Source: an uncultured Gammaproteobacteria bacterium (lineage in GTDB: Bacteria > Pseudomonadota > Gammaproteobacteria > Pseudomonadales > Azotimanducaceae_A). Taken from it: a stretch of DNA of 15,441 nt. Location: the NCBI GenBank assembly GCA_913041025.1, contig CAJWGQ010000054.1, forward strand, positions 1-15,441, given 5' to 3'. Shown piece after piece: positions 217 through 15,251 of this stretch. Under the pieces are notes generated by a model. That model did no database searches. It saw only the letters and a program-made list of their open reading frames with translations, and was not told where the DNA came from. Made by a program: the position numbers and the translations under genes. Numbering within the stretch: position 1 is the first letter of the stretch; each line of letters starts with the position of its first letter.

Positions 217-1749
217 ATGTCCGAAATTCGGGTGACCCTTGAAAAAATGTCCTCTTCGGGACCTGAGGCTGAGCCTGGTGTCGAGGTACTTGCTTGGTCC
301 GCAAGAGAGGACTGTTCAAAGAATTTTTATATTGAAACTATCCTTGCCCTTCCTAATGATTCCGATCGAGCTCACTTTATTGATCAGGGAAATGTCGTTA
401 GTGAATCAGCCTGGAGACTAACTGTCACCGCGAGCCCCTTGGTCGATAGCGGTGGTAACGCCGAACCGCGGGAACAGGTTCGTTATTTTCACTGTTTCTT
501 GGAAGAGGTCAGGGAGATCTCCGAGAGGGAGGGTCAGCGGACGCTAAAAGCGGTTTTCGCGCCGGTCACCTATCCCTTAAGCTTTGCCCGGGCAACGCGA
601 TCCTACAGAGAGAAAAGCGTAATCGATCTTTTCGAGGAAGGTATTGAAAAACTTAAATTGCTGACCAGTGGACGGGTCACGATTTCTTTGGAAAAGCATT
701 TAGCCAGGACGGACTATCCAACATGGGAATCTCGAGTTCAGTACCGAGAATCGGACTGGGACTTTCTGAAGCGTACTCTTGAAAGGGACGGGCTCTATTT
801 CTTCTTTGAGCAGAAAGAACTCGAAACGGTAATACACCTGTGTGATTCCTACCAAGAACACGCATCTGTCAATAAGCATACAGAACCGTACGTAAGATCA
901 GATCAGTCTGTATCTCATGTCAGCGCACTCAGCCGCGTTATACCGCGTTACGTTTGTGTCTCTGGATACCATTACCTCGCAGATGGCCTTAACCTTTATA
1001 CCTCGGTTGATACCGGTACATTGACGTATGCCGCTCCCGTTATCTCGCGTGAAAAGACCGATCTATCTGAGCCGCATACGGTTTTTTTGGAGGGCCTTGT
1101 AACGCCTCCCGGTGATGTAATCGAAAATGACGTTGTACTCGCGGACTTAAATTATCTGGTTTTACGGCGCGCGGAGGAGATAGTGTCAGCCGCTCGCTTT
1201 ATTGAGGGCGAAAGCGTAATACCCGGATTAAGTGCTGGTTCTATTATTGAAATAGCAGGGTTTTCCGATATTTGCGAATCTGGAGAGACATTTTTTGTCG
1301 CATCCGTCGACCATGTGACCGCCTACGGCCCGGATAACACACCAGGACTCTCATATAAAAATACGTTTAAAGCCTATCGGATGACTTCTTCAAACGAAGT
1401 TCAGTTTCGTCCTGCGCGGGTTACCGAACGTCCTTCGATCCCCGGCTTTCTCACGGGATTTATTAACGAGTACCGATATCCATCGCTTGAATCTCCCTCA
1501 ATTGCTGACCGAGATGGACTTGGCCGGTTTAACGTGGTGTATCAATTCGAAGCCTTCGACGGTACGGAGGATTCGATGAATGTGTTCCGCATGCGATCGA
1601 TTCGGATGGGAGCAGGGAGTCAAGGGGGAACATATTCGGCTCTTTTCGACGGTGCCGAAGTAGTCGTCGGATTTTATAAAGGTGATCCCGATCAGCCTAT
1701 TGTTGTCGGTTCGGTATTTAATACAATAGATCGCGATCCGACCATTTAG
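217..1749 (+). CDS. vgrG: T6SS spike protein VgrG (TssI), shaftless short form
   Basis: This encodes the trimeric spike base that sits on the Hcp tube and is fired by the T6SS sheath. The N-terminal gp27-like part (about residues 1-380) includes the family hallmark near 174-197: VQYRESDWDFLKRTLERDGL followed by YFFFEQ. The gp5-like OB fold covers about 405-505 and ends in the typical GDPDQPIVVGSVFN. The protein stops eight residues after that, whereas VgrGs usually continue into a long beta-helical needle, often with a DUF2345 or effector extension. The usual length is 600-750 aa or more; this one is 510. No signal peptide is present, as expected for a T6SS part. The ATG at 217 lacks a strong Shine-Dalgarno, but it gives the expected N-terminus. 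It is the first gene of a nine-gene run and is followed 34 bases later by three paralogous unknown genes. The family call is firm; the missing shaft is read directly from the sequence. Confidence 0.93.
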   Translation: MSEIRVTLEKMSSSGPEAEPGVEVLAWSAREDCSKNFYIETILALPNDSDRAHFIDQGNVVSESAWRLTVTASPLVDSGGNAEPREQVRYFHCFLEEVREISEREGQRTLKAVFAPVTYPLSFARATRSYREKSVIDLFEEGIEKLKLLTSGRVTISLEKHLARTDYPTWESRVQYRESDWDFLKRTLERDGLYFFFEQKELETVIHLCDSYQEHASVNKHTEPYVRSDQSVSHVSALSRVIPRYVCVSGYHYLADGLNLYTSVDTGTLTYAAPVISREKTDLSEPHTVFLEGLVTPPGDVIENDVVLADLNYLVLRRAEEIVSAARFIEGESVIPGLSAGSIIEIAGFSDICESGETFFVASVDHVTAYGPDNTPGLSYKNTFKAYRMTSSNEVQFRPARVTERPSIPGFLTGFINEYRYPSLESPSIADRDGLGRFNVVYQFEAFDGTEDSMNVFRMRSIRMGAGSQGGTYSALFDGAEVVVGFYKGDPDQPIVVGSVFNTIDRDPTI

Positions 1750-1783
1750 AGCGGTTCTACAACTAGTTACTGGAACACCATTT

Positions 1784-4249
1784 ATGGCTTTGACTCTACC
1801 CGCAGGAACTACTCAATGGCTCGAGGAGTACTGTCCTTCTGGGTACACTTCCACGGTCGGGAGCAAAATTTGGGATACAACTGACGCGGACGCGCGGGGA
1901 TTCGTGCTTTACTCGGCAAGCAACAATGCAGACCACTACTCGACTTATACGTGGATGCCCTGCGGAAGCTATTTTTTTACTGAGAATACCTCTACCGACA
2001 CCATCAGTGACGCGACGAACGCCCGCATAGGGACAGTAACGAGTGGTGTGTTCAATGACATTGCCTTGGGAGGTTCAAGCCTTACAAAAATCACTAGCGC
2101 TTCTTCTTTGACGGATTCGTCCGAAAACGCTATCAATTTGGGGTCGTTGCGTGTACCACTCGCCAGCAACGGAAAAAGTGACGACTCAAAGTATTCAGAG
2201 GTTATCGACTGCTCGTCAGTCGACCTCCTCAATAGCGCCATCGCAGAGTTCACCATAACAGAAACTTCAAGTACGACCGGGCTTTGGGATCAAGTATTGG
2301 CATCCGCGGGTCAGCCGGTAAGCGGTACTACTTTTTCAAACACGACGTCAGCAGAGGACGCAAATGTCACGCGAATTCTAGGCGATCAAATCAATGTCCG
2401 TTTCGGCAGTAACGGTACACAGGGTAAACGATCAACATCGTCTGGCACCGTTTACGATTATGGTATTGGAGGGGACGGTTCAATTTCGATCGGGCCAATT
2501 CGTTCAGTTCAGTCGATAGACAATACACCGTATTCGGGAACGAGCGGATTTATGCAGGGCACCAGTTTCGTTTGGCCGGGTCAGGACAGTGAGACGTACT
2601 CTGACTATCCGAAGCACATTTCTGAAATAGTCAACGTCGGGGCCACGTTTCTGACTAACGGTACGACAGCGGACGACTCAACCGAAGTGGCGAAAGGATG
2701 TTTTGAGAATCTCATTTACGGCCACACCTTTAATTTTCAACGAGGGATAAACATCGCTGTTGGCCAAAACGATGGAAACGATATAAATCTGGCCACTGGA
2801 TGGTCTTACAGTGATTCGTTCTGGCCGGGGTCAACTGACGAAAGTAGGCCCGATCAAGTCACGCCGCAAGATTCGTCAGGCAATGCTGAATCCGGTTGGA
2901 AGATCCCAAGTCACTTTGATTTTAGTGGACTACCATCTCCTTCGCCGCCCGGGGGCCTAGAGGTTTGGATGCAGATCATCAATTTTTTAAAAAGTTTCGC
3001 GACGCTTCAGATTCCTGATGTTAGTTTTGAAACAATAAAAAATGTCGGAATTGTCTTTGGAACTGGTGCCGCGTTCATATCAGCTCCGGTTGTTTCAACA
3101 GCAGTCATCGCTACAGCGGCGGCAGGCGGATTCGGCGATACTGGCTTGACGGACGAGATCGGAGGTGCGTTTTCGGGTATCGTCACTGATGCTTGGGAAG
3201 ATCTAGGAAGTTACTCATTTGGGCCCCCAACAAACGGGAGCCAGGTGGCTATGATAACAGCGGCGGACTTTCTGGATTGTGCGGATCCAACGACGCTGAC
3301 CCTCAATAGTGGAAACGATATTCAGGCAGCGTTTCTCACTGGAAGCAAGCTGAACATTGAGCGGCATGTGGGGACGCAAGCGTCTTACACTAGAGGAGAC
3401 TCTATTGATATTTGGGAAGATGCTGACGCAAGACAATGGTCACGGGAAGAAATCAGTGGAGATCAGATAATCAGCCGTGAGGTATTGGAAAACTCGGAAA
3501 CTTATGTGCAAGTCGCTCATCAGACCGAGGTAAATATTAACGGTTTTGGCTACAACCTCTCAACTGTAAGCGGTAGCTATGAGACTTCACAAGACAGACA
3601 GATTGACGTGGGTCTGGATGTCGCCCAGACAAAAGTCAGTTTAGCTACGGATGGCTTTGTGGGTACGGTAGGGCGGGCAGCAGGTAGCAAAATTGATGCC
3701 AGCTACGCAGGTTCAACGATCGAAATCGGTATAAAGGGATTGGAAATTAAGAACACGATATCGGGGTTGGCGGTTAAAAATGAAAACACGCCGGTGGACG
3801 AAGAAACGACTATTGGTGCGGCGAAGACTACGTTTTACAATGGGGTGATCTGGGACTGGGGCGTGCATGCAATTAAGACTGGCGTTAACAGTGCCCTTGC
3901 CTATATCAAAGCAGAACTCCTTAAAGCTGCCGCGGGGCTCACGAGAATGTATACAAGAATTATGGAAATGAAGCAACAATTGTTGGCAGCCTCTGTAAGG
4001 GGAGTCCGCCTCTATGCTGCTCCTTTTTCTGTCATGATGGGAGCACTTACGGCTGGGGCGCATCATAGTAGTCATGGCCAAGGCGGTTTAACATCGGGAG
4101 ACCAAATGAAAAAACAATTAATAGAAGACTTCTCTTTGAGTGATATAGCCGATCACGTGGACGAGGATGGAGATGACGCACGTATTCCAGAAGCGCATCA
4201 GGGGGTCGCCACAGACGTGAGAGATTCCGTAAGCGGGAGGACCGGGTAG
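1784..4249 (+). CDS. Spike-associated paralog A (821 aa), unknown family
   Basis: I do not recognise a named family. The protein is Ser/Thr/Gly/Asp-rich, looks beta-rich and has no signal peptide. It shares an ordered motif series with the next two genes: GTSFVW (259), YPKHISEI (275-282), GHTFNFQRGINIAVG (313-327), GTQASYTRG (530) and GLDV (610). The stretch 530-665 has short alternating polar and hydrophobic repeats like VgrG needle shafts. Between the motifs at 313 and 530 it has about 140 extra residues compared with its paralogs: a Pro-rich link (PSPSPPGG, 385-391) and a hydrophobic Ala/Gly/Val segment (421-450) that could enter a membrane. The C-terminus (about 690-770) is probably helical and the last 50 residues are acidic and polar. 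It starts 34 bases after vgrG and ends 25 bases before paralog B. Inferred roles are external spike shaft, spike-borne effector, or both. The gene is certain; its function is not. Confidence 0.85.
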   Translation: MALTLPAGTTQWLEEYCPSGYTSTVGSKIWDTTDADARGFVLYSASNNADHYSTYTWMPCGSYFFTENTSTDTISDATNARIGTVTSGVFNDIALGGSSLTKITSASSLTDSSENAINLGSLRVPLASNGKSDDSKYSEVIDCSSVDLLNSAIAEFTITETSSTTGLWDQVLASAGQPVSGTTFSNTTSAEDANVTRILGDQINVRFGSNGTQGKRSTSSGTVYDYGIGGDGSISIGPIRSVQSIDNTPYSGTSGFMQGTSFVWPGQDSETYSDYPKHISEIVNVGATFLTNGTTADDSTEVAKGCFENLIYGHTFNFQRGINIAVGQNDGNDINLATGWSYSDSFWPGSTDESRPDQVTPQDSSGNAESGWKIPSHFDFSGLPSPSPPGGLEVWMQIINFLKSFATLQIPDVSFETIKNVGIVFGTGAAFISAPVVSTAVIATAAAGGFGDTGLTDEIGGAFSGIVTDAWEDLGSYSFGPPTNGSQVAMITAADFLDCADPTTLTLNSGNDIQAAFLTGSKLNIERHVGTQASYTRGDSIDIWEDADARQWSREEISGDQIISREVLENSETYVQVAHQTEVNINGFGYNLSTVSGSYETSQDRQIDVGLDVAQTKVSLATDGFVGTVGRAAGSKIDASYAGSTIEIGIKGLEIKNTISGLAVKNENTPVDEETTIGAAKTTFYNGVIWDWGVHAIKTGVNSALAYIKAELLKAAAGLTRMYTRIMEMKQQLLAASVRGVRLYAAPFSVMMGALTAGAHHSSHGQGGLTSGDQMKKQLIEDFSLSDIADHVDEDGDDARIPEAHQGVATDVRDSVSGRTG

Positions 4250-4274
4250 ACTGTTTTCTTGTTAAGAAATTTCT

Positions 4275-6299
4275 ATGACAACTACAACAGAAATTACGGG
4301 GTCGGTCACGTATATAGACTCGAGCGGGACATCAGAAACGGGCTCCTATAGCCAGGACAAAGAGGAGGACGGGTCTACCGCTGCGGGGCGACAGCAAGTC
4401 ATATTTAATTCGATTGCCAAATCAGAAATAGAGTCAACCAAGTATTTAGATGCCTCATATGGTGCTGGTTGGTTATCGAGCAGTGCTGCTCTTACAACCA
4501 ATTACTCTACTTGGATAGGAGGGTCCTTTCTACGGGTTAGAGGTCAGTACGATGCCGCTGATCCGTACGGCGATTCATCTTCGATCACGATTTCGACAAC
4601 AGGTCGATCGATTGAGTTTTACGCAATGGGAGGTTGTGCCGGCGTGATCAATAAGCCGCCATCCACCGAATACATACCAACGACTCCCGACGACCCAGAT
4701 GGGATGATACCAACAAATTGGTTTAAGGGCTTACAAGATTACTGGATCGACACTGATTTCAATGACTCGTTAAATGCTGCAGCTTCCATTGCTGTTTGGG
4801 ACGCGACTGGATCAACGGCTGCAGCATCGCCTGCTAGCAAAGGTGTGGCTTCGCCCTCGACAGCCCTGGAGCAGGCGCTAGAGGATGGAAGCCATTACCT
4901 GAATGTCGTCCAGGGGCACAGTATGACCTGGGCAGACGGATATGATCTGAATATTTTCGAAGACTACGTCCAAATCTCACTTGGGAATGATGACTCAGTT
5001 GCTGCGTTAGATGTTAACGCCATGTTTGCCTATGTCAATCAGGCATCGGGGCCTCGTTTCTATGGAGGTAAGTGGCCAGAGATGCGCACTTCAGGCGTGT
5101 TAGCGACAACTACGTTAGGAAGCCATACCCCAACAGGGAGTGATACCACCACACCTGGTAACTATGACAGCGCGCTGAGGGTTGAATTCAATTCCAATTT
5201 CAACACTCTGAACGGGCCGAGTTCTTACAATCCAGACAACAATTTTGCGTCGCGGACATTTGGAACAACGTGGAGCACTGTTACGGGAAATCAGGTGGTG
5301 TACGGAACAGGCTCGGGCGACTTTAATCTTGGACCAACTCTGGAATTTAACTACCCGACGAGAACTGGAAAATACGTTATCGAGATTAGTGACGAGATGA
5401 TTGACGAACTTTATTGGGGGATGGCATATAACAAATCATATTTAGACATTGTCGGGGCTAACAACAAAGAAAAACGAGAGCAGTTGGTTGGTCGAGGAAT
5501 TGCCGAATCGTATACGGTCATTCCTGAAGGTGAAAAAACCTATAACTACTCCAAAGGAAATGTTCATGAGTTACACGTCGAGGACGTCGAAGGCAAGCGT
5601 CGGTCTCAGTCCTCAAAGGCTTTCGGCAGGACGGTAGAAAAAGCGCAGAAAGATTGGGTCAACGCGACAACGATTACTAATCTAAACATCGGCGAACAAA
5701 GAGCGGTCAACATTTTTGAAAAGGATGTTATTGGAGTCAACTTTGGCTTGGATGCCGTTGGCGTGGCTGTGGAAATAGGTAATACTGGCTATACGTGGAA
5801 AGGGCCACTAAAGAGTGCGGCGGGATGGGCAAAATATGCAGATCCGGATAGCTGGGAGGCGCAAGGATTTAGGGCCCAAATCGCCACAGGCCCCTGGCTC
5901 GCTGGGTTCAGCTTCGGTGTCGCTGGGGTCACAATAGATAACGTCATCATGGGAGTTACGCCAGCGATCAACTTGAAAAAGGAATTGGAAGGGTACGTTG
6001 TTTCAAACGAAATAATAGCCAGTGGATTGCGTAACAAAGCCGTAATTTCGGGCAAGGAGGATAGAATCAATTTAGGCGCAACTTTTAGATCTATGCTGGT
6101 TCAGGGCGTGCAAAATTACGTAAAAACTAGCAGAGCAAAAGTGGGCATAGCGGAGTTAGAGGCTAAGTCTGCTCCGACTGCCCAGGCAAGCCTTCAGAAG
6201 GTACGTAACGATGCCCTGAATATCCAGCAAAGCTCAACGCTTAAGGCGACGTTGGGTGCAATTTTTTCCAATATCCACGCTTTTTGCGCAAGGTGTTGA
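4275..6299 (+). CDS. Spike-associated paralog B (674 aa), unknown family
   Basis: No named family is recognised. The motif order matches its neighbours: GHSMTWADGYDLNIF (214-228), YGGKWPEM (263-270), GNQVVYGTGSGDFNLG (338-353), GEKTYNYSKG (419) and GLDA (491). The N-terminus (TTTEITGSVTYIDSSGTSET) resembles that of paralog C. Residues 120-175 form a separate region with Pro, Asp and aromatic residues. The stretch from about 410 to 510 looks like repetitive beta structure. The tail (about 565-674) appears more helical and basic and ends in FCARC, with two cysteines in the last four residues. There is no signal peptide or clear membrane span. The ATG at 4275 is preceded only by a weak A/G-rich stretch (AAGAAA). 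The stop codon lies one base before the start of paralog C, so the two are probably translationally coupled. Inference: a structural partner of A and C in the T6SS spike; a direct enzymatic role is not visible. Confidence 0.85.
   Translation: MTTTTEITGSVTYIDSSGTSETGSYSQDKEEDGSTAAGRQQVIFNSIAKSEIESTKYLDASYGAGWLSSSAALTTNYSTWIGGSFLRVRGQYDAADPYGDSSSITISTTGRSIEFYAMGGCAGVINKPPSTEYIPTTPDDPDGMIPTNWFKGLQDYWIDTDFNDSLNAAASIAVWDATGSTAAASPASKGVASPSTALEQALEDGSHYLNVVQGHSMTWADGYDLNIFEDYVQISLGNDDSVAALDVNAMFAYVNQASGPRFYGGKWPEMRTSGVLATTTLGSHTPTGSDTTTPGNYDSALRVEFNSNFNTLNGPSSYNPDNNFASRTFGTTWSTVTGNQVVYGTGSGDFNLGPTLEFNYPTRTGKYVIEISDEMIDELYWGMAYNKSYLDIVGANNKEKREQLVGRGIAESYTVIPEGEKTYNYSKGNVHELHVEDVEGKRRSQSSKAFGRTVEKAQKDWVNATTITNLNIGEQRAVNIFEKDVIGVNFGLDAVGVAVEIGNTGYTWKGPLKSAAGWAKYADPDSWEAQGFRAQIATGPWLAGFSFGVAGVTIDNVIMGVTPAINLKKELEGYVVSNEIIASGLRNKAVISGKEDRINLGATFRSMLVQGVQNYVKTSRAKVGIAELEAKSAPTAQASLQKVRNDALNIQQSSTLKATLGAIFSNIHAFCARC
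6291..6295 (+). promoter_or_regulatory. Ribosome binding site deciding the start of paralog C
   Basis: AGGTG lies five bases before the ATG at 6301. The frame is also open from an ATG at 6256, but that one lies inside paralog B and has no Shine-Dalgarno. The 6301 start gives an N-terminus (MTDTFKIEST) resembling that of paralog B, so it is preferred. Confidence 0.6.
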
Positions 6300-6300
6300 G

Positions 6301-8421
6301 ATGACTGACACCTTTAAGATCGAAAGCACATACGCAACCGTTCAAAGTCAGGACGCCACTGCTACAGATTCCACCACTAGTAGTAGCGAAGTCATCGCTC
6401 TTGGCACTACCGAAATCCGTTTTGCGGAAGTGTTTAAGTCCAGCGATGACTTCGCCACTACTAATGAAAAATCAAATGCCGGCATTTTAATCAGGTCTGC
6501 CGGCCCTACGCCTAGTCTTGGCGCTCAGAAACGAGCTTCGTTTATTGTGCAGAGAGGTAATGGCCTCACTGATTCTTCCGTTCCAACAAACTCGACAAAA
6601 GTCAATGTTTATCGTGCGTCCTCGGGCTCTGTGGTGGAGTATGCAGGCGTGGAATCGCTTGAGATTAATTTTACAAGGTCGGCGTATCAGAGCTTCCGCA
6701 ACTCTGGGCAAGTCGCGAGAGCTAATGACTCAACCGCCACTAGTGGAATTGGTGACGCCTTGGGTTTTGGACAACCCGATGCCATTGACCCTGAGATGCT
6801 CCTGGCTGGGTTTCAAACCTTTATTAAAGCAGGCGTTGGAAGTGACATCACTACCTACCAAGGCAACAAGGGTGCGGGTTTAGTCGCTACCTCGGGCTCA
6901 GGCACCACTGCAACAACTACATCAACAGATAATATTCATAGCTGGGATTCCACTGCCGCATCAACTGACCCGATCGGATTAAAGAAGGTTGTCGTCGGTA
7001 AAAATTACCTTTACCGAAAAGGGACGGATTTCAATCTTGGGTTTGAAACTGGCGGTAGTACTACTATTGGAACTAGTGACGATGCAAGTTTTGCAACCGA
7101 AGACTTGTTTTCAGCCAACGATGACACCACTGGCGGCCGTGGAAACATGGCGCCACATTATGGCAAGTGGCCGGCTGTCACTACCGATTGGGGTGTTGAT
7201 CCGGATCCTAAAGGCACCAAGCGTTGGCTGCATAATTCTGCGTACGCAAGTCCGGATGATGGGGATAACACTACCAATTTCAGCTCGACCTGCAAAACCG
7301 CGTCGGTCAGTAGGGAGGCGACTGGAGATGGTGAGTCAGCGGAATACGATTCGGCTAACGGACAAGGTCTAGAACTCAAAGGAGAGATTGTTAAAGATGC
7401 CCTCACAGCAGCCGGAGTTGACGAGGAACTTAATAATTTCATGCCCCTTGGGAGCTATGCAAGTATGCACGTGGGCGACAGCGTTACTTATCAATCTGGA
7501 AACAACTTCAATTTTGGCAACCACGCCGACAACATGGAGATAAATATTGGACCCGCTGCTACTTTCAATATCTGGTCGCAAAGCGAGAGCGATTGGAGTC
7601 CTTCAACCGATGACGTGGCTGGCAAATTTGGGGCTCAGGATGAGTTCAGCACTTACAGCCAGGAAGAACAGGACAAGTGTGTGGTTGTGGAGAAGACCCT
7701 AGGTGATACTTATAGTGTCTCCTGGGGCGCTGCGCGTTCGCTCACAAAAGACAGTACGGACACATGGTACCAGCGTGAAGGTGCTGGCTATGACTATTCC
7801 CATATTTTTTCGACCAACTCTGACACGACGATTTCCGGGACCGACCCAGGGTTATATGAGGTAAAAAATGTCGGAACCTCCGTTGGTTTGGATGTTACCG
7901 GCATTAAATTTGACGTTGATAACGCTTTATCGAGAACCGTTAGTTCTCAAGCAGAGTTCGGGGTTATTCTTCAAGCTGAAATCAATTTGGGAGCTTCTGC
8001 AGATTTCTCCATTGTCGGAGCGGAGCTTAAAGGCACCTTTCCCAGACCACCGTCTGGCTTAAATGTGGTTTACAAACTTGACGCGACATATCACGGTGCG
8101 TCCACAGAGGTTGATGCTGCTGGTATAAGAACGGGCCTGGATTTCGCCGTGTACCGGTTGATCGGAAACGCGAAAGGAAGCGATGGGAAGTCAAGTGCAG
8201 AAGGTGCAGACAATAATGCAGAAGTGGTGAGTGAAATAGAGTCTGACACAGCGGTGAACCTCCAGGGTGATACATCTAATTCAGTAAACGCAATTGGTTC
8301 GGAAGCTCAAAACTCACTAGTTGATGTTAACCAGAACACAGGGCCACAACTCAGCTCGAATGGCCCGTCTTCAGGTTTGGGAGCTCTGGGGGTGGAAGCT
8401 GGCGATCGTTTGGCATCCTAA
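6301..8421 (+). CDS. Spike-associated paralog C (706 aa), unknown family
   Basis: No named family is recognised. It carries the same motif series as A and B: GKNYLYRKGTDFNLG (233-247), YGKWPAV (287-293), GDSVTYQSGNNFNFG (392-406), GDTYSVSWG (468-476) and GLDV (529-532). The two 15-residue Gly-bounded motifs are nearly position-for-position alike, which indicates an internal duplication. Residues 195-225 are Thr/Ser low complexity. Residues 460-590 look like repetitive beta structure ending in a hydrophobic, Gly-rich stretch. The tail (about 625-706) is Ser/Asn/Asp/Gly-rich and probably flexible. The start at 6301 is chosen over the upstream in-frame ATG at 6256 because of the Shine-Dalgarno and the paralog N-terminus. 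There is no signal peptide. It follows B by one base and precedes the DUF2169 gene by eight bases. Inference: third member of a spike-shaft or fibre trio. Confidence 0.85.
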   Translation: MTDTFKIESTYATVQSQDATATDSTTSSSEVIALGTTEIRFAEVFKSSDDFATTNEKSNAGILIRSAGPTPSLGAQKRASFIVQRGNGLTDSSVPTNSTKVNVYRASSGSVVEYAGVESLEINFTRSAYQSFRNSGQVARANDSTATSGIGDALGFGQPDAIDPEMLLAGFQTFIKAGVGSDITTYQGNKGAGLVATSGSGTTATTTSTDNIHSWDSTAASTDPIGLKKVVVGKNYLYRKGTDFNLGFETGGSTTIGTSDDASFATEDLFSANDDTTGGRGNMAPHYGKWPAVTTDWGVDPDPKGTKRWLHNSAYASPDDGDNTTNFSSTCKTASVSREATGDGESAEYDSANGQGLELKGEIVKDALTAAGVDEELNNFMPLGSYASMHVGDSVTYQSGNNFNFGNHADNMEINIGPAATFNIWSQSESDWSPSTDDVAGKFGAQDEFSTYSQEEQDKCVVVEKTLGDTYSVSWGAARSLTKDSTDTWYQREGAGYDYSHIFSTNSDTTISGTDPGLYEVKNVGTSVGLDVTGIKFDVDNALSRTVSSQAEFGVILQAEINLGASADFSIVGAELKGTFPRPPSGLNVVYKLDATYHGASTEVDAAGIRTGLDFAVYRLIGNAKGSDGKSSAEGADNNAEVVSEIESDTAVNLQGDTSNSVNAIGSEAQNSLVDVNQNTGPQLSSNGPSSGLGALGVEAGDRLAS

Positions 8422-8429
8422 AAATTAGA

Positions 8430-11400
8430 TTGAAAGTTATTAAGCCCCTCCAAGTTTCGTATTTCCCCCATGTCCAACGGTTTGCTGGTGACTGGTTTCA
8501 GCTTCACACTGCGATCGTAGCTTGGGACCTAGTAACCGGCGATACTCGAACCGAGATAGATTTTTGGAGAGCCGCAGAGCCACTTAATAAAAAACAGATT
8601 CCTGTCGATGAGTTCATTCCGAAACCAGAGAATGAATTTCTCGCGGCGGGCTCCTTCTTCGCACCGCTCGGTAGGGCGGTTAGGGCGGGTTTCGCAGAGA
8701 TCGAAGTTGGATCAATAAGAAAGCGTCTCAGTGTTTTTGGAGAAAGAAGATGGAAAAGCGCCGCTGGGATCACGACGACGTTCACCGATCCCGCTCCCTT
8801 TGTTACGCTTCCGTTAGATTGGGAGAACGCGTACGGTGGTCTCGATTACGAACAGAATCCGTTGGGTATCGGTCGACAGGAGGACCCAGAGACAGGTGAC
8901 CTGATACTCCCGAGAATTGAAACATTTGGAGAAGAGATGGGCGATCCGAAAAACGAGCCCCCGAGCGGCTCGTTTTTGCCGATTTCTGTTACCCATCCAG
9001 ATCGAGCCATATGCCGGGGAAGTTATGATGGTCGATACCTAGAAAAATTTTTCCCTGGTTATCCAGATGACCTTGAGACGCGGTTCTTCAACAGAACCCC
9101 TGAAAATCAATGGATATCAGACGAACTCAATCAAAGTTGTCCTTTCGTTATTCGAAATATGCACCCAAAAAAGGAAGAGATTTCTGGTGTTCTACCAGAT
9201 TTTGATATTCGGGTATTCCAAGTACCAAAAGATAAGGTTGATGGTCAATTCGATGAAGTGTTGATGCGAGCCGACACCGTTTGGTTCTTCCCTGACGCAG
9301 AGCTCGGGGCTTTGATTTTTCACGGTTCTAACCCGACTGAGTTCCACGATTGGGAGCATATCGAATCAATCACCGTGGGTTATGAAAGAAAGTCGCAGCA
9401 GAGGAAGACCGTCTCGCATTATCAAAAAGCGACGCAAACCCGCATGGGTGACCAAATGAAGGAACTGGGATTGATGGTCAATGGTGCTGACCTGATACCC
9501 CTTGGAGAGCGTACGCTGATGGCGATTTTCGAGGAGTCGCCAGACGATACCTTAAAAATGTACGCGGTCGAGCGTGCTGAAGAGGGGACAAAGAAAAAGG
9601 CGCTTGAGTATATTGATGACGAAGAAAAGCAGTTGTTGTCTCGTGAAAAACGTTTAGCGGATATGCCGGAGGATGCCTCCAAAGAGATGCAAAAACAGAT
9701 TGACGAGATGCGAAAAATGTTAAGTGCTCAAAGGAAAAGGATCGAAGGCGATAAGCTCGAAGGATTGAGCCCAGAGGAGCAACGAATGCTGCAAGCTGTG
9801 GAGAAGGTAACTCCACGAAAAGCGGATGGGAGTTTGGACCTTCAAAAATTCGAATTCAGTGCCGTGGAAGACGCTTTTGAGGCGGCGGATGATGTCCTAC
9901 CACCGTCGCCCCCATCTCGACAACAGTTTACCCAGGAAACGCTCAAGCAAATCGACGATCATTTCGAATCAGGCATAAAGAAGCTTAAAGAGACTCCAAA
10001 CCCCAAGGATTACAAAGAACTCAGGGATAGCTTATCTGAAAAACAACTTGCTGTAGTCGATGACATGACGGCTAAAATAGAGAAAGACGCAAGGCAACAA
10101 TATCAGAAGGTCAGGAGTGCGCTCGAAGATGATTCTGAGAGAGTGCCGTTGCCACGGCCTCCTGCTGTCACTGGCCTTCTCGAGGCGATCGCAGCCCTCG
10201 ATATTGAAGGAATGCTGAAAAAGCATGAAGAAATAGCGCTGGACTACATTCGCAAACAAGGTGACGCGCCCGACGGCTTTGCAGAAAAAGTATCAGTCGG
10301 CCTTTCTGAAATTGAGACAATTTCGAATGAAGATCTGAAAGAGTTTATAGATCAAATTCAGAGACAGATCCCAGATGCGGAAGAAGCCGACGAGATCTGG
10401 CACTTGGGTTATGTCGCGGGTTGTCACGAATTTCCTGACGGCTCCGCCCCTCATGGCCTTGAAGCCTCAGAACTTCGCCTGCTACTCACTTCACGATTAG
10501 CGAAGGAGGTGAAACGCCCTCGGATTGATGACTTTGCGGAACTCGAGTTAGCGGATCATACCCTAAACTCCTTAGATCTCTCTAAGGCATATTTTGAACA
10601 GGCAAATTTGAGAGGCGTTGATTGGCTAAATTGCAATCTTTCTGGTGTAGTTCTGGCTCGAAGCAGCCTCGTAAATGTCAATTTTTTCGACTGTAATTTT
10701 GATAACGCCTCATTTGGCGGTGCGGTCTTGACAAACTGCACCTTCAACAGATGCTCTTTTAATCAAACAAATCTGTCGAAAGGAAAGTTTGGAGACTGCA
10801 GGTTTCAGAGGTGTGATTTCCAAGAAAACATTGTTTCGGGAGCCAGTTTTCTAGCAACAACATTCGAAGACTGTGATTTCACGGGAGCAATTTTCCTGGA
10901 ATCTAAATTTATCGACGCGGTTATCAGTTGTTCTTCACTCACCCGCGTGTTTCTTAGTAAATGTCACGTCGATGATATCTCGATCCAGCAGTCAGACCTT
11001 AAGCAGTGTGTCATCGCGGAAGGCAACTTTTCCAATCCATCCCTGATTTCGTGCAGCGTCGAAAGGATATTCTTTGGACAGGAGTTGCAGATTCGGAGAG
11101 CGCTCTTTGAAAATTGCAAATTTAATATGGCAAATTTTCGAGAACTCGACCTCACTGACTCTGTTTTCAGAAATGTCTTTGCAACGTTGAGCGACTTTAG
11201 CGACGCAAAAATAACTAACGTAGTGTGGATTGATAATCAGTTTTTGGATTGTAGATTCCTGAAGACCGACATAACGGGTGCGGTTGTGAATCAGTGTGAT
11301 TTTTCAAATTCCAATATGCAAGAGGCGGATCTTCGTGATGGGAAGTTCTCGGACTCTTCATTTTTCTCAGTTCAATTCTTACACGCCAAGATAGGAGGCG

Positions 11401-11456
11401 CGCATTTTTCTGAGTGTGATTTGAATCGAACATTGCTTGAGGACTGGTCGCCTTGA
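8430..11456 (+). CDS. DUF2169 T6SS adaptor fused to a pentapeptide-repeat helix
   Basis: DUF2169 proteins are T6SS accessory factors thought to load effectors or PAAR-type tips onto VgrG. The N-terminal domain (about 1-320) starts with the family-typical MKVIKPL and contains RRWK (106-109), LPLDWENAYGG (127-137), NPLGIG and the LPDFDIRVF strand (255-263). Residues about 380-690 are highly charged (Lys/Glu/Arg) and probably alpha-helical or coiled coil, with Pro-rich breaks (PPSPPS, 491-496). From about 703 to 1005 runs a right-handed quadrilateral beta-helix of pentapeptide repeats, with Cys often at the inward i-2 position and Phe or Leu at the centre (NCTF, RCSF, DCRF, RCDF, DCDF). The start is TTG at 8430; no early in-frame ATG exists, and the conserved N-terminus supports TTG. 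The last four bases overlap the next gene. DUF2169 joined to pentapeptide repeats suggests an adaptor with its own docking rod; that role is inferred. Confidence 0.9.
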   Translation: MKVIKPLQVSYFPHVQRFAGDWFQLHTAIVAWDLVTGDTRTEIDFWRAAEPLNKKQIPVDEFIPKPENEFLAAGSFFAPLGRAVRAGFAEIEVGSIRKRLSVFGERRWKSAAGITTTFTDPAPFVTLPLDWENAYGGLDYEQNPLGIGRQEDPETGDLILPRIETFGEEMGDPKNEPPSGSFLPISVTHPDRAICRGSYDGRYLEKFFPGYPDDLETRFFNRTPENQWISDELNQSCPFVIRNMHPKKEEISGVLPDFDIRVFQVPKDKVDGQFDEVLMRADTVWFFPDAELGALIFHGSNPTEFHDWEHIESITVGYERKSQQRKTVSHYQKATQTRMGDQMKELGLMVNGADLIPLGERTLMAIFEESPDDTLKMYAVERAEEGTKKKALEYIDDEEKQLLSREKRLADMPEDASKEMQKQIDEMRKMLSAQRKRIEGDKLEGLSPEEQRMLQAVEKVTPRKADGSLDLQKFEFSAVEDAFEAADDVLPPSPPSRQQFTQETLKQIDDHFESGIKKLKETPNPKDYKELRDSLSEKQLAVVDDMTAKIEKDARQQYQKVRSALEDDSERVPLPRPPAVTGLLEAIAALDIEGMLKKHEEIALDYIRKQGDAPDGFAEKVSVGLSEIETISNEDLKEFIDQIQRQIPDAEEADEIWHLGYVAGCHEFPDGSAPHGLEASELRLLLTSRLAKEVKRPRIDDFAELELADHTLNSLDLSKAYFEQANLRGVDWLNCNLSGVVLARSSLVNVNFFDCNFDNASFGGAVLTNCTFNRCSFNQTNLSKGKFGDCRFQRCDFQENIVSGASFLATTFEDCDFTGAIFLESKFIDAVISCSSLTRVFLSKCHVDDISIQQSDLKQCVIAEGNFSNPSLISCSVERIFFGQELQIRRALFENCKFNMANFRELDLTDSVFRNVFATLSDFSDAKITNVVWIDNQFLDCRFLKTDITGAVVNQCDFSNSNMQEADLRDGKFSDSSFFSVQFLHAKIGGAHFSECDLNRTLLEDWSP
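11438..11443 (+). promoter_or_regulatory. Ribosome binding site for the pentapeptide gene at a TTG start
   Basis: TGAGGA lies nine bases upstream of the TTG at 11453. It supports reading the next gene from a TTG that overlaps the TGA of the DUF2169 gene (TTGA), an arrangement that implies translational coupling. Confidence 0.6.
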
Positions 11457-12541
11457 TTGAATTTGAGGAGTCAGACTTATCAGTTTCCGGCCAGTTGGCA
11501 AAGGGTCACGGCGTGATGGGTGCCACGGCCGAGGGTGAGAGTTTTAGGGGAACAGACCTCAAAGGCGTCATATTTATGAATTGCGTCTTTAACTCCTGCC
11601 GTTTTTTGGGCGCGGAGATGCAGGAGGCTCAATTGATGAACTGCAAGTTTGTGGACTGCGAGTTTTTGAACTGCAAAGCTGGGTCAATTTTATTTATGAA
11701 GTGTGAGTTCATTGACTCGCTTTTGCAATCAGTCGTCGGCAACAAGCAAACGTGGATGGAATCGAGTTTTTCTCGGTGCCAGTTTTCTGATTTTTCTTAT
11801 GAATTTGTGCAGGTGGTGAAGTGTACTTTTGAAGAATCGTTTTTTAAAAATGGACGGTTCTTTCGTTTTGCATTTTTGGATTCGGATTTGGACGGGCACG
11901 TATTCGATAACATGCACCTTGAACAGGGGAATATGCTAAAGATCCGGACCAAGGGTGCGACGATAAAGAAAAATTGCCGAATCGATACTGTATTAATCCA
12001 TGAAGCTATCTTTGATGGCCATGATTGGCAAGGAATGCAGCTTCCCAGAGTTCAATTCGTGGAGTGTTCGCATGTGGCGGGATTATTTAACAATGCGGAG
12101 TTATCCTCTGCTGGATTTCAGGAGTGTAATCTTCATGGCATTCAAATGAAAAAAGTGCGGGCGGATAACGCTCGTTTCTCTAAGTCGAACCTAAATCAGG
12201 CTGAGTTCACTGGGTCTAAAATGACATCGTGTCTTTTCACAGAGTCGCAACTGACAGGAGCGAAATTTAATGATGTGGTCATGGATAAGTCTATAATTAT
12301 CAAATGCGATGCCAAGAAGATGCAATTTGATGCGGTAGACCTGTCCGAGGGTACTTTTGAGGATAATGATGTTGCGGGCGCCCAGCTTACGAACATTAAG
12401 CTGAACTTTGCCAAGGTTGACCGACTATTGGAAGACAACGATACGGATTGGACAGGCTCTTTAAAGAAGGTATGCAGGCTGAATGATGAACGGGATAATC
12501 GCGCGAAGGTTGTGAAAAACGTAGGAAGGCCACAGAAATGA
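11453..12541 (+). CDS. Pentapeptide-repeat protein in the T6SS tip cassette
   Basis: Almost the whole 362-aa chain, from about residue 30 to 330, is pentapeptide repeat and should form a right-handed quadrilateral beta-helix. More than ten cysteines precede the central aromatic or aliphatic residue in the form C-x-F (NCVF, SCRF, NCKF, DCEF, KCEF, RCQF, KCTF), giving an expected inner Cys ladder and Phe stack. Met and Gln are unusually common. The last 35 residues are charged and basic and outside the repeats. No catalytic motif is visible. It overlaps the DUF2169 gene by four bases (TTGA) and the DUF3540 gene by four (ATGA), so the three products are likely made in matched amounts. Its repeats resemble the C-terminal half of the preceding protein, pointing to duplication or to a pair that stack end to end. 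Pentapeptide proteins recur beside DUF2169 in T6SS clusters, but their exact job is not settled. Confidence 0.88.
   Translation: MIEFEESDLSVSGQLAKGHGVMGATAEGESFRGTDLKGVIFMNCVFNSCRFLGAEMQEAQLMNCKFVDCEFLNCKAGSILFMKCEFIDSLLQSVVGNKQTWMESSFSRCQFSDFSYEFVQVVKCTFEESFFKNGRFFRFAFLDSDLDGHVFDNMHLEQGNMLKIRTKGATIKKNCRIDTVLIHEAIFDGHDWQGMQLPRVQFVECSHVAGLFNNAELSSAGFQECNLHGIQMKKVRADNARFSKSNLNQAEFTGSKMTSCLFTESQLTGAKFNDVVMDKSIIIKCDAKKMQFDAVDLSEGTFEDNDVAGAQLTNIKLNFAKVDRLLEDNDTDWTGSLKKVCRLNDERDNRAKVVKNVGRPQK
12523..12529 (+). promoter_or_regulatory. Ribosome binding site for the DUF3540 gene
   Basis: AGGAAGG lies eight bases before the ATG at 12538. It favours this start over the in-frame ATGs at 12547 and 12568. 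The ATG overlaps the upstream TGA (ATGA). Confidence 0.6.
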
Positions 12542-13203
12542 AATTGATGGAAAGTGATAATTGGGCGATGCGTAGTCACCCAATCCAAAGTTACCAAGCG
12601 GGTTTAGTTACCAAGGTGGGAGAGGATGGTCAATATGAAGTCCAAATAGGTGACGGTCGTGTGGGAGCAAATGTCGCCTTAAGTTGTCTTGTATTGCCCA
12701 TTGAAGGTGACACGGTCGCGGTTTATTCGGTGGAGGGTGCTGGAGCGTTCATCGGTTTAATTCTGTCGCGAGGTTCAGGTAGGCATGTAGTAGACATTAG
12801 GATCAACGGCGATTTGCACCTTGAGTCGACCGGCAAGCTGACCCTACTGTCGTTGAAAAGTATTTCAATGAGTGCCAGCGATAAGATCGAGATACTGAGT
12901 CAGATTCTTGAAGTTTGGGGCAATGAATTAAGGCTTACAGGAGAGCGCCTGTCCTCAACATTTTCTACAGTTAGGTTAGTAGGCAGTTCGGTCTCCAGTT
13001 ACTTTAAAAAGGTTACTTCATCTGCTGAAACGATCATGCAGACCGCAAATCAACTCTTCAGAAGCACAAAAACGATAGAAAGCGTCCAGTGCGGAGCTCT
13101 CACCCAGAAGGTCTCTGGCGCGATGGTTTCCCAAAGCGAGTATGCCGCCATTTTAGCAAAACAAGATATGCGCATCGATGGTGCGCGAATCCATGTTGGG
13201 TAA
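12538..13203 (+). CDS. DUF3540 T6SS accessory protein
   Basis: This 221-aa protein matches the DUF3540 pattern. A small beta-barrel-like N-terminal part (about 18-78) reads an opening QAGLVTKV strand, GQYEVQIGDGRVGANVALSC, then VLPIEGDTVAVYS. It is followed by a run of short beta strands (about 84-150) with S/T-L-x-L-x-S alternation, and a C-terminal part ending in the family-typical sequence MRIDGARIHVG. The first part resembles the OB-like domain of VgrG and the second a short beta-helix, so it may sit near or on the spike; this is inference. DUF3540 is known from T6SS clusters with DUF2169 and DUF4150, and no enzymatic role is established that I can cite. No signal peptide is present. It is followed 17 bases later by the DUF4150 gene, which fits a tip-assembly role. 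Confidence 0.85.
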   Translation: MKLMESDNWAMRSHPIQSYQAGLVTKVGEDGQYEVQIGDGRVGANVALSCLVLPIEGDTVAVYSVEGAGAFIGLILSRGSGRHVVDIRINGDLHLESTGKLTLLSLKSISMSASDKIEILSQILEVWGNELRLTGERLSSTFSTVRLVGSSVSSYFKKVTSSAETIMQTANQLFRSTKTIESVQCGALTQKVSGAMVSQSEYAAILAKQDMRIDGARIHVG

Positions 13204-13220
13204 TATAAATAGAGATAGTT

Positions 13221-13637
13221 ATGTTCAATAATTGCTACACGATACCCGGGATAAATTTCGCGTTTCCTGATGTCGCATTAACTCCAATCCCCAGCCCCGT
13301 TGGGCCAATTCCTATCCCTATCCCCTATCCGAATACAGGTATAAACGCTACTGCGCTTCCGTTCACAACGGTCGTAAACGTATTTGAGTTCTTCACCCCT
13401 GCCCACAATGTGATTACCACTTTGCCTATGTCTCTTGGGGATCAGCCCGGATTCCTTGGGGGAATTACGTGCGCCCCAATCGACATGGCAACGCAGTCGC
13501 GGGTGACTTGCAGCACCTCAACCCTGATGGGATGTCTCCCAGTGGTGAGGATGATTGATATGACACTCCAAAATTTATGGAATTCAGCGGGCCTGACCTG
13601 CTCCCCAAGCCAGGTCTCAACCTTAATAATGAGATAG
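13221..13637 (+). CDS. DUF4150 PAAR-like spike tip protein, minimal form
   Basis: PAAR-like DUF4150 proteins cap the VgrG spike and often carry a C-terminal toxin. This one has the family landmarks in order: AFPDVALTPIPSPVGPIPIP (14-33), IPYPN (34-38), the TLPMSLGDQPGFLGG turn (67-81) and a final STLMGCLPVVRMIDMTLQN block (100-118) that corresponds to the usual metal-site and strand region. It ends at 138 residues with no toxin extension, so it is a bare cap. Cysteines at 84, 97, 105 and 127 are candidate metal ligands or structural residues; canonical PAAR tips bind zinc, but I cannot assign the ligands here. No signal peptide is present. The ATG at 13221 has only a weak purine stretch upstream. 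It lies between DUF3540 and the 182-aa unknown gene, the usual place for a tip protein in these clusters. Confidence 0.87.
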   Translation: MFNNCYTIPGINFAFPDVALTPIPSPVGPIPIPIPYPNTGINATALPFTTVVNVFEFFTPAHNVITTLPMSLGDQPGFLGGITCAPIDMATQSRVTCSTSTLMGCLPVVRMIDMTLQNLWNSAGLTCSPSQVSTLIMR

Positions 13638-13662
13638 TTTTATTTATTTAGAGGCAGTGAAG

Positions 13663-14211
13663 ATGACAAAAAAGAAGACTACCAAGAAAAAAGCGCGGCG
13701 ATCCCCCGTTAAATCCTCGAGTCCACAGAGCGATGTCAAGTCACGTGAGCCCATATCTCCGATTAGTGCGCACCCCGAGGAGGTAATTGATCAACTCCAG
13801 GAAATGATGAAAGGGGCCGCAATGCTTAAGGATGTTTTGCCGAGCAGTTTGGAATCCTCTGGTAGTGAGACTCAAGCGGTAAAAGAGAACGACAGGCACG
13901 GCGGCGCGTCTGAGAAGGCTCCTGAGATCGAGAAGGAATCTGTCGGTGAAGACGCATCCCAAGAGCAAAAATCAGCAGAGGCGCTAGCAGCGGAAAAAGT
14001 GGCTGAGCAGGAGCGGCAAAGGCTATTCCATCTGTGTAATTCTCTGAACCTTTATCAAAAAGGCCATATCCTTTCTTTTTTGGCGCGGGAAGTTGTGTTG
14101 CATGACGTAAATTCCAACTCAGTGCTTCCCGTGACCGCTTGCGACATTGCCATCGAAGGAGTGTCTATTATTATACGCTTGCCAAAAAAGCAAGATGATG
14201 GTTCGACTTAA
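13663..14211 (+). CDS. Unknown 182-aa protein with basic tail, last gene of the cassette
   Basis: I do not recognise the family. The first 16 residues are rich in Lys, Arg and Thr (MTKKKTTKKKARR) and resemble nucleic-acid-binding or disordered tails. Residues about 20-110 are Ser/Glu/Lys/Gln-rich and likely disordered, apart from a possible short helix (EEVIDQLQEMMKGAAMLKDV). The C-terminal 65 residues look folded: a helix (ERQRLFHLCNSLNLY) followed by strands (ILSFLAREVVLH, then VLPVTACDIAIEGVSIIIRL). ATG at 13663 is preferred over the in-frame GTG at 13657 because GAGG at 13651-13654 is well spaced for the ATG. It follows DUF4150 by 25 bases and is the last gene before the terminator. It could be a small T6SS adaptor, a chaperone or an immunity-like protein; nothing in the sequence decides between these. 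Confidence 0.75.
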   Translation: MTKKKTTKKKARRSPVKSSSPQSDVKSREPISPISAHPEEVIDQLQEMMKGAAMLKDVLPSSLESSGSETQAVKENDRHGGASEKAPEIEKESVGEDASQEQKSAEALAAEKVAEQERQRLFHLCNSLNLYQKGHILSFLAREVVLHDVNSNSVLPVTACDIAIEGVSIIIRLPKKQDDGST

Positions 14212-14302
14212 TGTGTCTTTCCGGGTGATATAGGCGGGGCGTCTAAATTTATTTACAAAGTTCCCGGCCACAGTGGCGCACTTAGACGAACATTTGTTTC
14301 TT

Positions 14303-14366
14303 GCGCAACCATCCGTTTTGAGGGAAAAGTAACCGGCTCAAGCGCAACCATCGGGCAGATTTGAGG
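14303..14366. repeat. Imperfect tandem direct repeat before the terminator
   Basis: GCGCAACCATC occurs at 14303-14313 and again at 14342-14352. Each copy is followed within 3-7 bases by TTTGAGG (14317-14323 and 14360-14366). The second TTTGAGG is part of the terminator stem. This looks like a small local duplication between the last gene and the terminator; no function can be assigned. Confidence 0.6.
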
Positions 14367-14390
14367 CTCTCAGCCTGCAAAAGTTTTTTT
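14360..14390 (+). terminator. Rho-independent terminator closing the T6SS operon
   Basis: TTTG-AGGCT (14360-14368) pairs with AGCCT-CAAA (14372-14381) around a CTC loop, with one bulged G at 14377. AG and seven consecutive T follow (14384-14390). The structure lies about 150 bases after the stop of the 182-aa gene and is on the same strand, so it likely ends the long transcript that begins upstream of vgrG. Confidence 0.75.
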
Positions 14391-15251
14391 ATTCTCTGTA
14401 GTGATCAGTCTTGCAACGGCCGCCGTAAGTTTCGTTTCTTACAATTCAACTGCTCGAAAAAATATCGGCGATCTAACACAAAGCGAAACTCTGAGACCGG
14501 TTTACGTGGTTCGGCCGAGGTGTCTCCTCTCCCTCCTGCCGAAACGGTTCAAGAATCTTTGTGCCAAAAGTTCGTTTCTTTTCCAGATTTAATTTCAGAT
14601 GCTGCGCGTTAGGAGCATGTCTTTTTTCTGTATTGAAAGCAAATCCATCCTGACGCCTGATCGTTTAAAAAATATGACTAGCATCAGAGAAGGAAATACC
14701 TCCAGCCTGCTAATAAGAATCATCGACTTGTCAAGTTGTTTCAATAAGAGTTCACATCTACGCGCGAAGCTCTTTGAGCATAAGAAAAAAAATTCAAGTC
14801 CCTGACCGAAGCGTAGATGCTCAACTTGTATCGGTAATCAGAGATGCAGCGAGTCGTTCCGAAAAACGCGATCATCGTGACCCAATGGGAGGCGTTCTAG
14901 AACTCGGTAAGCTTTGTGGGCAGATCAATCGAGGCAGCGGAGGTGGAATATGGCAGCCCCAGGTGCGGTTGATTTTCACACTGGCAATATTAAATAAAAA
15001 CGTCTGTCACCGTTTAGTCTTCTTATTGTCACCTTATGCGATACAGATTCACGGTCGGCAGCCCGGCGCTGGACGGGTCACCAGCGTTTTGGATCGTGAA
15101 TCTCTGACTCTAGTATTTCATCAGAGGGATCGTGGTTCGTAAGAATGCTTGGTATAGTCGCCGCCCTCAATTAGATCTCGTTCTTGCGTATGAGCTTTAC
15201 GATCGAGTCAAGAGCTCACCCTTTGTTCAGAACCTTTCTTAATATGCGATT
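14391..15251. other. Intergenic region with no credible gene
   Basis: About 860 bases between the operon terminator and the next gene. The open frames here are short, lack good Shine-Dalgarno sequences, overlap one another and have no recognisable protein pattern. A 36-codon frame (GTG 15132 to TAA 15240) just before and in frame with the next gene is possible but unsupported. Apart from the inverted repeat at 15045-15103, I see no tRNA, rRNA, CRISPR array or insertion-sequence ends. It may hold the promoter of the next gene, an unrecognised RNA or decayed coding sequence. Confidence 0.5.
15045..15103. repeat. Nested 59-base inverted repeat, possible structured RNA or cruciform
   Basis: AGATTCACGGTC (15045-15056) pairs with GATCGTGAATCT (15092-15103) over 12 positions with one G-U wobble. 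Inside, CGCTGG (15067-15072) pairs perfectly with CCAGCG (15081-15086). No T-run follows, so it is not a terminator on the + strand. It lies about 150 bases upstream of the next gene's start and could be part of its leader, a small RNA or a protein-binding site. Confidence 0.5.

Follow-up and report, generated by a model that had tools for sequence, protein, structure and literature searches.

Gene content of the locus

The window, the whole stretch of 15,441 nucleotides that was analysed, carries a vgrG gene, three adjacent genes designated A, B and C, and a downstream set of tvp genes, and all of the features described here are on its forward strand. VgrG is usually seen as a single chain whose homotrimer forms hub and needle together. 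The vgrG product of the window (217..1749, 510 aa) has both a gp27-like hub, with residues 85-367 matching PF05954 (E 7e-29), and a gp5-like OB domain at residues 440-501 (1534..1719; PF04717, E 2.5e-6). A PDB sequence search returned VgrGs with E values down to 2.4e-21, and the NCBIfam VgrG models match as well, though below the model cut-offs. No shaft motif was found in this protein (shuffle p 0.82 for the best motif and 0.695 for the sum), and the C-terminal beta-prism shaft within the same chain by which a VgrG/TssI spike protein is recognised is absent. The sequence bears out the earlier note, which had described a VgrG without a needle, ending eight residues past the OB block, with three genes of the sizes given below directly downstream. 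VgrGs without a shaft make up 2 of the 16 counted (that of the window and that of locus L073), a count that omits L025_2593 (906 aa), L031 and L032 (886 and 1,083 aa, where the block pattern did not match), L050, L051 and L052 (532, 768 and 546 aa, L050 and L052 being cut by contig ends), and also L069, L070, L071, L072 and L076, which have tvp-like genes and no recognised VgrG in the stretch. The ORF listing yields false long frames in GC-rich genomes, and the VgrG starts of L022 and L032 are over-extended.

The three candidate detached shaft chains follow vgrG directly: A (1784..4249, 821 aa), B (4275..6299, 674 aa) and C (6301..8421, 706 aa, with a possible GTG start at 6256). The intergenic gaps are of 25 bases between A and B and 1 base between B and C, too tight for an additional gene. 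Each of the three is about as long as one entire fused VgrG shaft. B is related to C across nearly the whole length of B, and plain BLASTP among A, B and C gave nothing convincing. A has one hydrophobic stretch, and its conserved, hydrophilic C terminus differs from many VgrG tips. Searches of Pfam, PHROG and NCBIfam gave no match below E 0.1 for A, B or C and no recognised toxin domain.

A Class III Tvp module of TvpAB, TvpB, TvpC (DUF3540) and a PIPY-type PAAR lies 3' of C at 8430-13637; these tvp genes, above all TvpC/DUF3540, had been missed by the earlier note. TvpAB (8430..11456, 1008 aa) joins in one chain a DUF2169 chaperone domain (PF09937 at 54-298, E 1.6e-57) and pentapeptide repeats from about residue 709, the TvpA with C-terminal pentapeptides that characterises Class III. 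The other marks of the class are an independent pentapeptide-repeat TvpB (11453..12541, 362 aa; PF13599, E 5e-30), a DUF3540-type TvpC (12538..13203, 221 aa; PF12059, E 6e-32, above the cut-off) and a small DUF4150/PIPY PAAR-like spike tip without an effector domain (13221..13637, 138 aa; PF13665, which we take to be the former DUF4150, E 1.3e-21, with the PIPY motif read in the sequence). The long beta-prism of the cognate VgrG, a published trend of Class III rather than a strict definition, is absent from the window VgrG. The name TvpAB is taken from PMC13373197, where TvpC is described as an OB fold plus beta-prism mimic of VgrG. Residues D214 and I218 of TvpC are invariant across 13 sequences and, judging by their spacing, are taken to correspond to residues at the tip of the Serratia protein (PMC13373197). 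A PDB sequence search with TvpC gave nothing convincing, and tblastn of TvpC in plasmids gave nothing. The last ORF of the run (13657..14211, 184 aa) has a lysine-rich N terminus and no family above the cut-off, and its membership of the module is uncertain.

Resemblance of A, B and C to VgrG shafts

The C-terminal shafts of full-length VgrGs from the same kind of cluster were used as the comparison set, with shuffled and unrelated controls as nulls. The hhalign scores of A (33.2) and C (36.8) exceed 150 of 150 nulls, whereas that of B (22.7) is reached by 4 of 150; the hhalign probabilities for the shaft matches are low. HMMER with VgrG shaft profiles on its own gave no significant match. B is linked to VgrG shafts only via C.

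Two motif regions are found in each protein. The first, which includes a Trp-Pro, was located by motif comparison at residues 313-348 of A (2720..2827), 214-268 of B (4914..5078) and 233-291 of C (6997..7173). The second was aligned by hhalign at residues 518-544 of A (3335..3415) with VgrG shaft positions 429-455, and at residues 421-443 of B (5535..5603) with positions 442-464. In C it occupies residues 455-491 (7663..7773) and pairs with positions 428-464, the null-controlled hhalign alignment being longer (414-491 with 384-464). The shaft motif of A and the motif sum of C were each matched by 0 of 1000 shuffles. A PDB sequence search with the C family gave nothing convincing, and a single-chain model of C, which shows no confident globular fold, has a pLDDT of 24.8, too low to inform on the fold. 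Taken at the level of sequence, these comparisons support the view that A, B and C are diverged shaft-domain relatives, A and C directly and B through C, and the shaft is probably encoded by genes apart from vgrG.

Homologues of A and C came only from a large protein collection (sources 'ena' and 'lgn') queried with both, in which about 8,000 candidates were scored per query, so that the counts are lower bounds: at least five for A (P0016-P0020) and at least P0002-P0013 for C. The A homologues and A have the same start position. Both A and C were found again in an independent, diverged lineage, where they have probably been co-retained, and the C homologue P0002 contains a stretch common to phage virion structural proteins. 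Among genomes, A homologues (A4 profile) were found in none of 20 chosen, and C homologues (A1 profile) in neither of two; in 369 genomes A1 had one weak, stop-containing match (E 0.0095), judged to be chance. No relative appeared when C was compared with genome contigs or when viral contigs were scanned with A1 and A2, and plasmids and phages searched by tblastn had no match to C. The A2 scan of genome contigs led to two loci, L001 and L002. Homologues beside a full-length VgrG or outside T6SS loci, which, if common, would speak against a detached shaft according to the earlier note, did not emerge in this range (20 genomes for A, 2 and 369 for C).

A candidate divided spike

We read the locus as a T6SS spike module of the Class III Tvp type in which the VgrG chain is probably divided (a probability of roughly 70%), with hub and OB fold encoded by vgrG and the shaft by A, B and C. 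The vgrG product would provide only hub and OB fold, seated on the Hcp tube, and the needle shaft, which is part of VgrG in fused relatives, would be encoded instead by the adjacent genes. The genes would be co-transcribed. TvpAB and TvpB would act as chaperones that fold the PIPY tip onto TvpC, the placeholder, in line with the published scheme for Serratia. When the spike is physically assembled, TvpC would be replaced by an A/B/C shaft standing on the hub trimer of VgrG rather than by a full-length VgrG. The interpretation in the earlier note is in part upheld. Its central idea, that separate proteins supply the shaft, is supported, as A and C, and B via C, resemble fused shafts beyond the nulls; its other suggestion, that the three proteins stack as spike extensions, is less likely because each alone already matches a complete fused shaft in approximate length.

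Within this reading, it is a tentative proposal, at less than even odds, that A, B and C combine 1:1:1 into an obligate heterotrimer, which would form the shaft, rise from a homotrimeric VgrG hub and carry the PIPY tip. What bears on one mixed trimer is the compatible lengths and common motifs of the three chains. A rather unlikely arrangement, itself a version of the divided VgrG and overlapping with it in odds, is that A, B and C each trimerise on a common hub, giving interchangeable spikes. All three have shaft motifs and are long enough for a full shaft, and known T6SSs employ alternative VgrG-PAAR spikes (the available part of PMC4924876), but the window holds a single PAAR and a single tvp set, A alone may not hold a tip given its C terminus, and redundancy is weakly contradicted by A and C having probably been retained together.

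The divided VgrG must also be weighed against readings in which A, B and C are not the shaft. It is improbable that a TvpC trimer, with its published OB fold and beta-prism, is the final shaft above the VgrG hub, capped by the PAAR, and that A, B and C are cargo or surface decorations. TvpC is present and keeps D214 and I218, and the phage virion stretch of P0002 also favours this reading; yet the matches of A and C to VgrG shafts, above all nulls, are left unexplained, and Serratia TvpC gives way to VgrG and has just a 16-residue unstructured tail where the hub domain would be (PMC13373197). DUF3540 as the outsourced shaft had been the initial idea, demoted by the published placeholder role of TvpC and by the match of A and C to VgrG. 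The neighbours of vgrG are often effector genes, and this, together with the lack of database matches for A-C and the hydrophobic stretch in A, favours stand-alone effectors or adhesin-like cargo that are only superficially beta-repetitive. Such a role is quite improbable against the motifs common to A-C and VgrG shafts, the lack of a recognised toxin domain and gaps that leave no space for another gene. Despite the rarity of shaftless VgrGs, a degenerate or mis-assembled locus is very improbable, given open, tightly packed frames, the shared start of the A homologues and the recurrence of A and C in an independent lineage.

If the chain is divided, hub and shaft would be separable and could evolve independently, perhaps even be exchanged, and the placeholder TvpC would yield to a shaft with no covalent link to VgrG, a point that bears on why a placeholder is needed in Class III Tvp systems, a question still open. 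Three separate shaft-like genes beside a shaftless VgrG appear to be unusual and possibly denote a spike of three different chains, and with four proteins the question of a heterotrimeric contractile-injection spike becomes directly testable. A 1:1:1 heterotrimer would be a three-fold spike with three genetically different faces, on which three differing loops, hydrophobic segments or phage-derived inserts could be presented.

Separate and mixed spikes in known systems

Contractile phage tails have hub and spike in separate genes (gp27/gp5 in T4, gpD/gpV in P2), with the OB fold as part of the spike protein and the spike as a homotrimer; in the window, by contrast, hub and OB fold share one chain and there are three candidate shaft genes. 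Serratia marcescens Db10 has a Class III Tvp system (PMC13373197) with the same TvpAB (DUF2169-PPR), TvpB, TvpC (DUF3540) and DUF4150/PIPY PAAR. Its VgrG1 carries a 186 Å beta-prism within a single chain, whereas the window VgrG lacks a prism and vgrG is separated from tvpAB by three additional genes. The DUF2169 clusters of synteny type C likewise link DUF2169-PPR, DUF3540, VgrG and a PIPY protein, and, unlike the window, separate shaft genes are not described for them in the available part of PMC11883445. For Vibrio cholerae a heterotrimeric VgrG has been proposed, and the idea was put to the test in Aeromonas dhakensis, where, according to the accessible portion of PMC8668125, several effectors were concluded to be required rather than the heterotrimer as such. 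The idea of a spike from differing VgrG chains is the same, but the chains there are complete VgrGs, and in the window only the shaft would be mixed.

The other shaftless VgrG, at L073 (genome G494), has 509 aa, stops 45 residues past the measuring point and is followed by a 206-aa ORF with matches below the cut-off to the PF21930 beta-helical trimerisation domain (E 0.013) and to Gp5_C (E 0.22). The window and L073 share a short VgrG with separate coding sequence after it. Unlike the window, L073 has a single short candidate shaft gene, on the strand opposite to the tvp genes and without an established relation to A-C, and its VgrG/ORF pair may be a decayed gene.

Gene run of the window and its Tvp module

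The window carries nine open reading frames (ORFs) in one run, all on the + strand and separated by -4 to 34 bases. The vgrG gene (217-1749, +) matches the hub (PF05954) and OB (PF04717) families as well as VgrGs of known structure, and its product stops eight residues past the OB block. Directly downstream are A (1784-4249, +), B (4275-6299, +) and C (6301-8421, +), so the description of a shaftless VgrG followed by three further genes was borne out. The start of C is ambiguous: either GTG at 6256, which gives a 44-base overlap with B, or ATG at 6301 directly after B; the longer form is predicted for its homologue P0003, and the ATG start for the ten other aligned homologues.

The following genes (8430-13637, +) have the order DUF2169-pentapeptide, pentapeptide, DUF3540 and PAAR-like, and all four Class III Tvp families match there above the Pfam cut-off. 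Judged by these families, they form the accessory gene set of a Class III Tvp system, which the earlier note had missed. The definition of this class dates from 2026, Serratia marcescens serving as model. In that species TvpAB, made of DUF2169 and pentapeptide repeats, and TvpB are reported to wrap the DUF4150 PAAR on a placeholder, TvpC (DUF3540), an OB and beta-prism trimer later replaced by VgrG, and Class III VgrGs reportedly have longer beta-prisms than VgrGs working without Tvp proteins (PMC13373197). A further paper likewise describes DUF2169 as a chaperone of PIPY (DUF4150) tips (PMC11883445). In contrast to the class trend, the window VgrG has no prism, an anomaly that needs explanation. 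Residues D214 and I218 of the window TvpC are invariant among 13 aligned DUF3540 sequences; by the spacing D-x3-I-x-V they would correspond to D204 and I208 of Serratia TvpC, which are reported to contact TvpB/TvpAB and the PAAR (PMC13373197). The nearest named relative of this TvpC, from Proteobacteria bacterium TMED51, is 58% identical over 94%. The run closes with a small ORF of 184 aa (13657-14211, +), lysine-rich at its N terminus, for which no family scored above cut-off. In the remainder (14212-15441), neither of the two + strand ORFs scanned had a Pfam match, and there was no Rfam match.

Likeness of A, B and C to fused VgrG shafts

PF12059 (DUF3540) had hits in 12 of 398 genomes from the phylum of comparison genome G002 (10 over cut-off) and in 13 of 369 from the class of G001 (12 over cut-off), two draws that partly overlap. 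Several of these loci have the order VgrG, DUF2169-pentapeptide, pentapeptide, DUF3540 and PAAR-like. Counting residues past the OB block plus 20, 14 of the 15 VgrGs measured have 260-648 and the VgrG of locus L073 has 45; the window VgrG has 2. This count leaves aside L025_2593, L031, L032, L050, L051, L052 and clusters without a recognised VgrG in the stretch. By this measure the fused shafts of L001, L021, L049 and one L029 VgrG have 628-648 residues. Genome G001 (L001/L021) has two Class III clusters in tandem, DUF3540 and PAAR-like of the first being followed by VgrG, DUF2169, pentapeptide, DUF3540 and PAAR.

A profile was built from the aligned shafts of five fused VgrGs (L001, L021, L049, L048 and L002), and the best hhalign sites on it overlap (A 429-455, B 442-464, C 384-464); a further hhalign comparison gave similar sites. 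Scores were compared with 150 nulls, of which 60 were single ORFs without relation to these proteins and 90 came from block-shuffling the A, B and C profiles. In this comparison A (33.2) and C (36.8) surpass all nulls (maximum 26.3), while the 22.7 of B was matched or beaten by four. The site 428-464 is somewhat attractive by itself, being touched by 3/60 unrelated ORFs and 16/90 shuffles, and the probabilities that hhalign itself assigns are low (C 14.0%, A 5.8%, B 0.7%).

A 19-residue motif matrix, made from VgrG shafts alone (16 instances picked by eye, 15 unique), ranked A third, C fourth and B eighth among 137 proteins. Summed over its three best hits, the motif score was reached in 1000 shuffles never for A or C and once for B; the best single hit was reached 0, 4 and 49 times for A, C and B, respectively. 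This matrix did not find the motif in the window VgrG, TvpAB or TvpB. It is present in three of eight other Class III VgrGs (L031, L032 and L029_3444) and absent from five, and is thus no mark of the class as a whole. Trp-Pro follows the first motif by 15-60 residues in A, B, C and three of the five profile VgrGs, and the pair occurs in none of 206 other ORFs, the remaining Class III VgrGs included. It arose in 2000 shuffles 10 (A), 13 (B) and 4 (C) times. The pair is conserved in each of the six A rows; of the 12 C rows, it meets the same threshold in the window protein and P0003, lies elsewhere in P0013, and shows up in nine only when the threshold is relaxed. Because Trp-Pro was spotted before testing, it counts as supporting and not independent evidence. 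The S+T+N+D+G content is 44.0% in A, 40.2% in B and 46.7% in C, closer to the 34-44% of fused shafts than to the level of 196 other ORFs (28.7 +/- 5.1, maximum 55.2).

Proposed assembly of a probable separately encoded shaft

Together, these comparisons suggest that the shaft is encoded separately from VgrG, with a probability of about 0.7. With 821, 674 and 706 aa against 628-648 residues in the fused shafts of L001, L021, L049 and one L029 VgrG, A, B and C would each amount to about one complete long shaft chain. One trimeric shaft needs three chains, and a stack of three homotrimers would be about three times the longest shaft measured here; length therefore favours a mixed trimer or alternative homotrimers over the stacked spike extensions that the earlier note had also entertained. 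A 1:1:1 heterotrimer of A, B and C is a tentative option, somewhat on the doubtful side. The single-chain model of C, from a 12-sequence alignment (mean pLDDT 24.8, pTM 0.16), has no bearing either way on an intertwined trimer. In the most likely mechanism for a separately encoded shaft, the VgrG hub trimer would sit on Hcp, a TvpC-PAAR-TvpAB-TvpB pre-complex would form, and TvpC would be exchanged for the A/B/C shaft, bridging hub and PIPY tip. In the literature covered, mostly titles and abstract openings and with few subscription journals, no report was found of a VgrG with a shaft from separate genes.

By eye, the C-terminal ends of many fused VgrGs are hydrophobic, and those of B (...GAIFSNIHAFCARC) and of diverged C homologues (...KVISVFV or ...TVISVFV) resemble them; A has a conserved hydrophilic tail, and the tail of window C is polar. 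These differing tails lean towards the three chains having unequal roles, and are suggestive only. Hydrophobic stretches (Kyte-Doolittle at least 1.6 across 19 residues) also lie within the shafts of L021, L049, L029_3444, L027, L048 and L074, in window A (421-439) and in its homologue P0016; by this measure they are absent from window B and C, the four diverged A homologues and several other VgrGs. Serratia VgrG1 has reportedly been linked to membrane depolarisation, and by analogy these stretches might be membrane-active segments.

Homologues and a possible second divided VgrG

Among the best-matching candidates scored from a genomic and metagenomic protein collection, C has at least 12 homologues besides the window protein and A at least five. 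A C homologue and an A homologue each come from a contig of 15,689 bases, and a second such pair from contigs of 12,777 bases; from these equal lengths we infer that A and C have stayed linked in a lineage with about 40% identity. The remaining ten C and three A homologues form no such pair. In the alignment, A homologues share their start column with window A, which counts against a sequencing frameshift.

The VgrG of L073 (genome G494; 1617-3146, +; 509 aa) also ends soon past the OB fold. A gap of 41 bases, which includes a GGGGG stretch, parts it from a separate GTG-started ORF of 206 aa (3188-3808, +) that has below-cut-off matches to the beta-helical trimerisation domain PF21930 (E 0.013) and Gp5_C (E 0.22). 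This locus may hold a second, simpler divided VgrG, or else a gene in decay.

The C homologue P0002, whose best local alignment covers 52% of C at 99% identity, has at about residues 338-422 an insert absent from window C; this insert matches families of phage virion structural proteins (phrog_701, 708, 460 and 19630; E 4e-10 to 1e-8). The four diverged A homologues have, by eye, a similar-looking Gly/Ser/Tyr-rich insert in another place, and phage-like modules seem to have been gained and lost in shaft loops. Between VgrG and the DUF2169 gene, L023 (9496-13438) and L025 (9979-13317) have same-strand arrays of small ORFs (93-132 aa); by eye, several of these are alike and hydrophobic at the N terminus, and each array may be a bank of immunity proteins.
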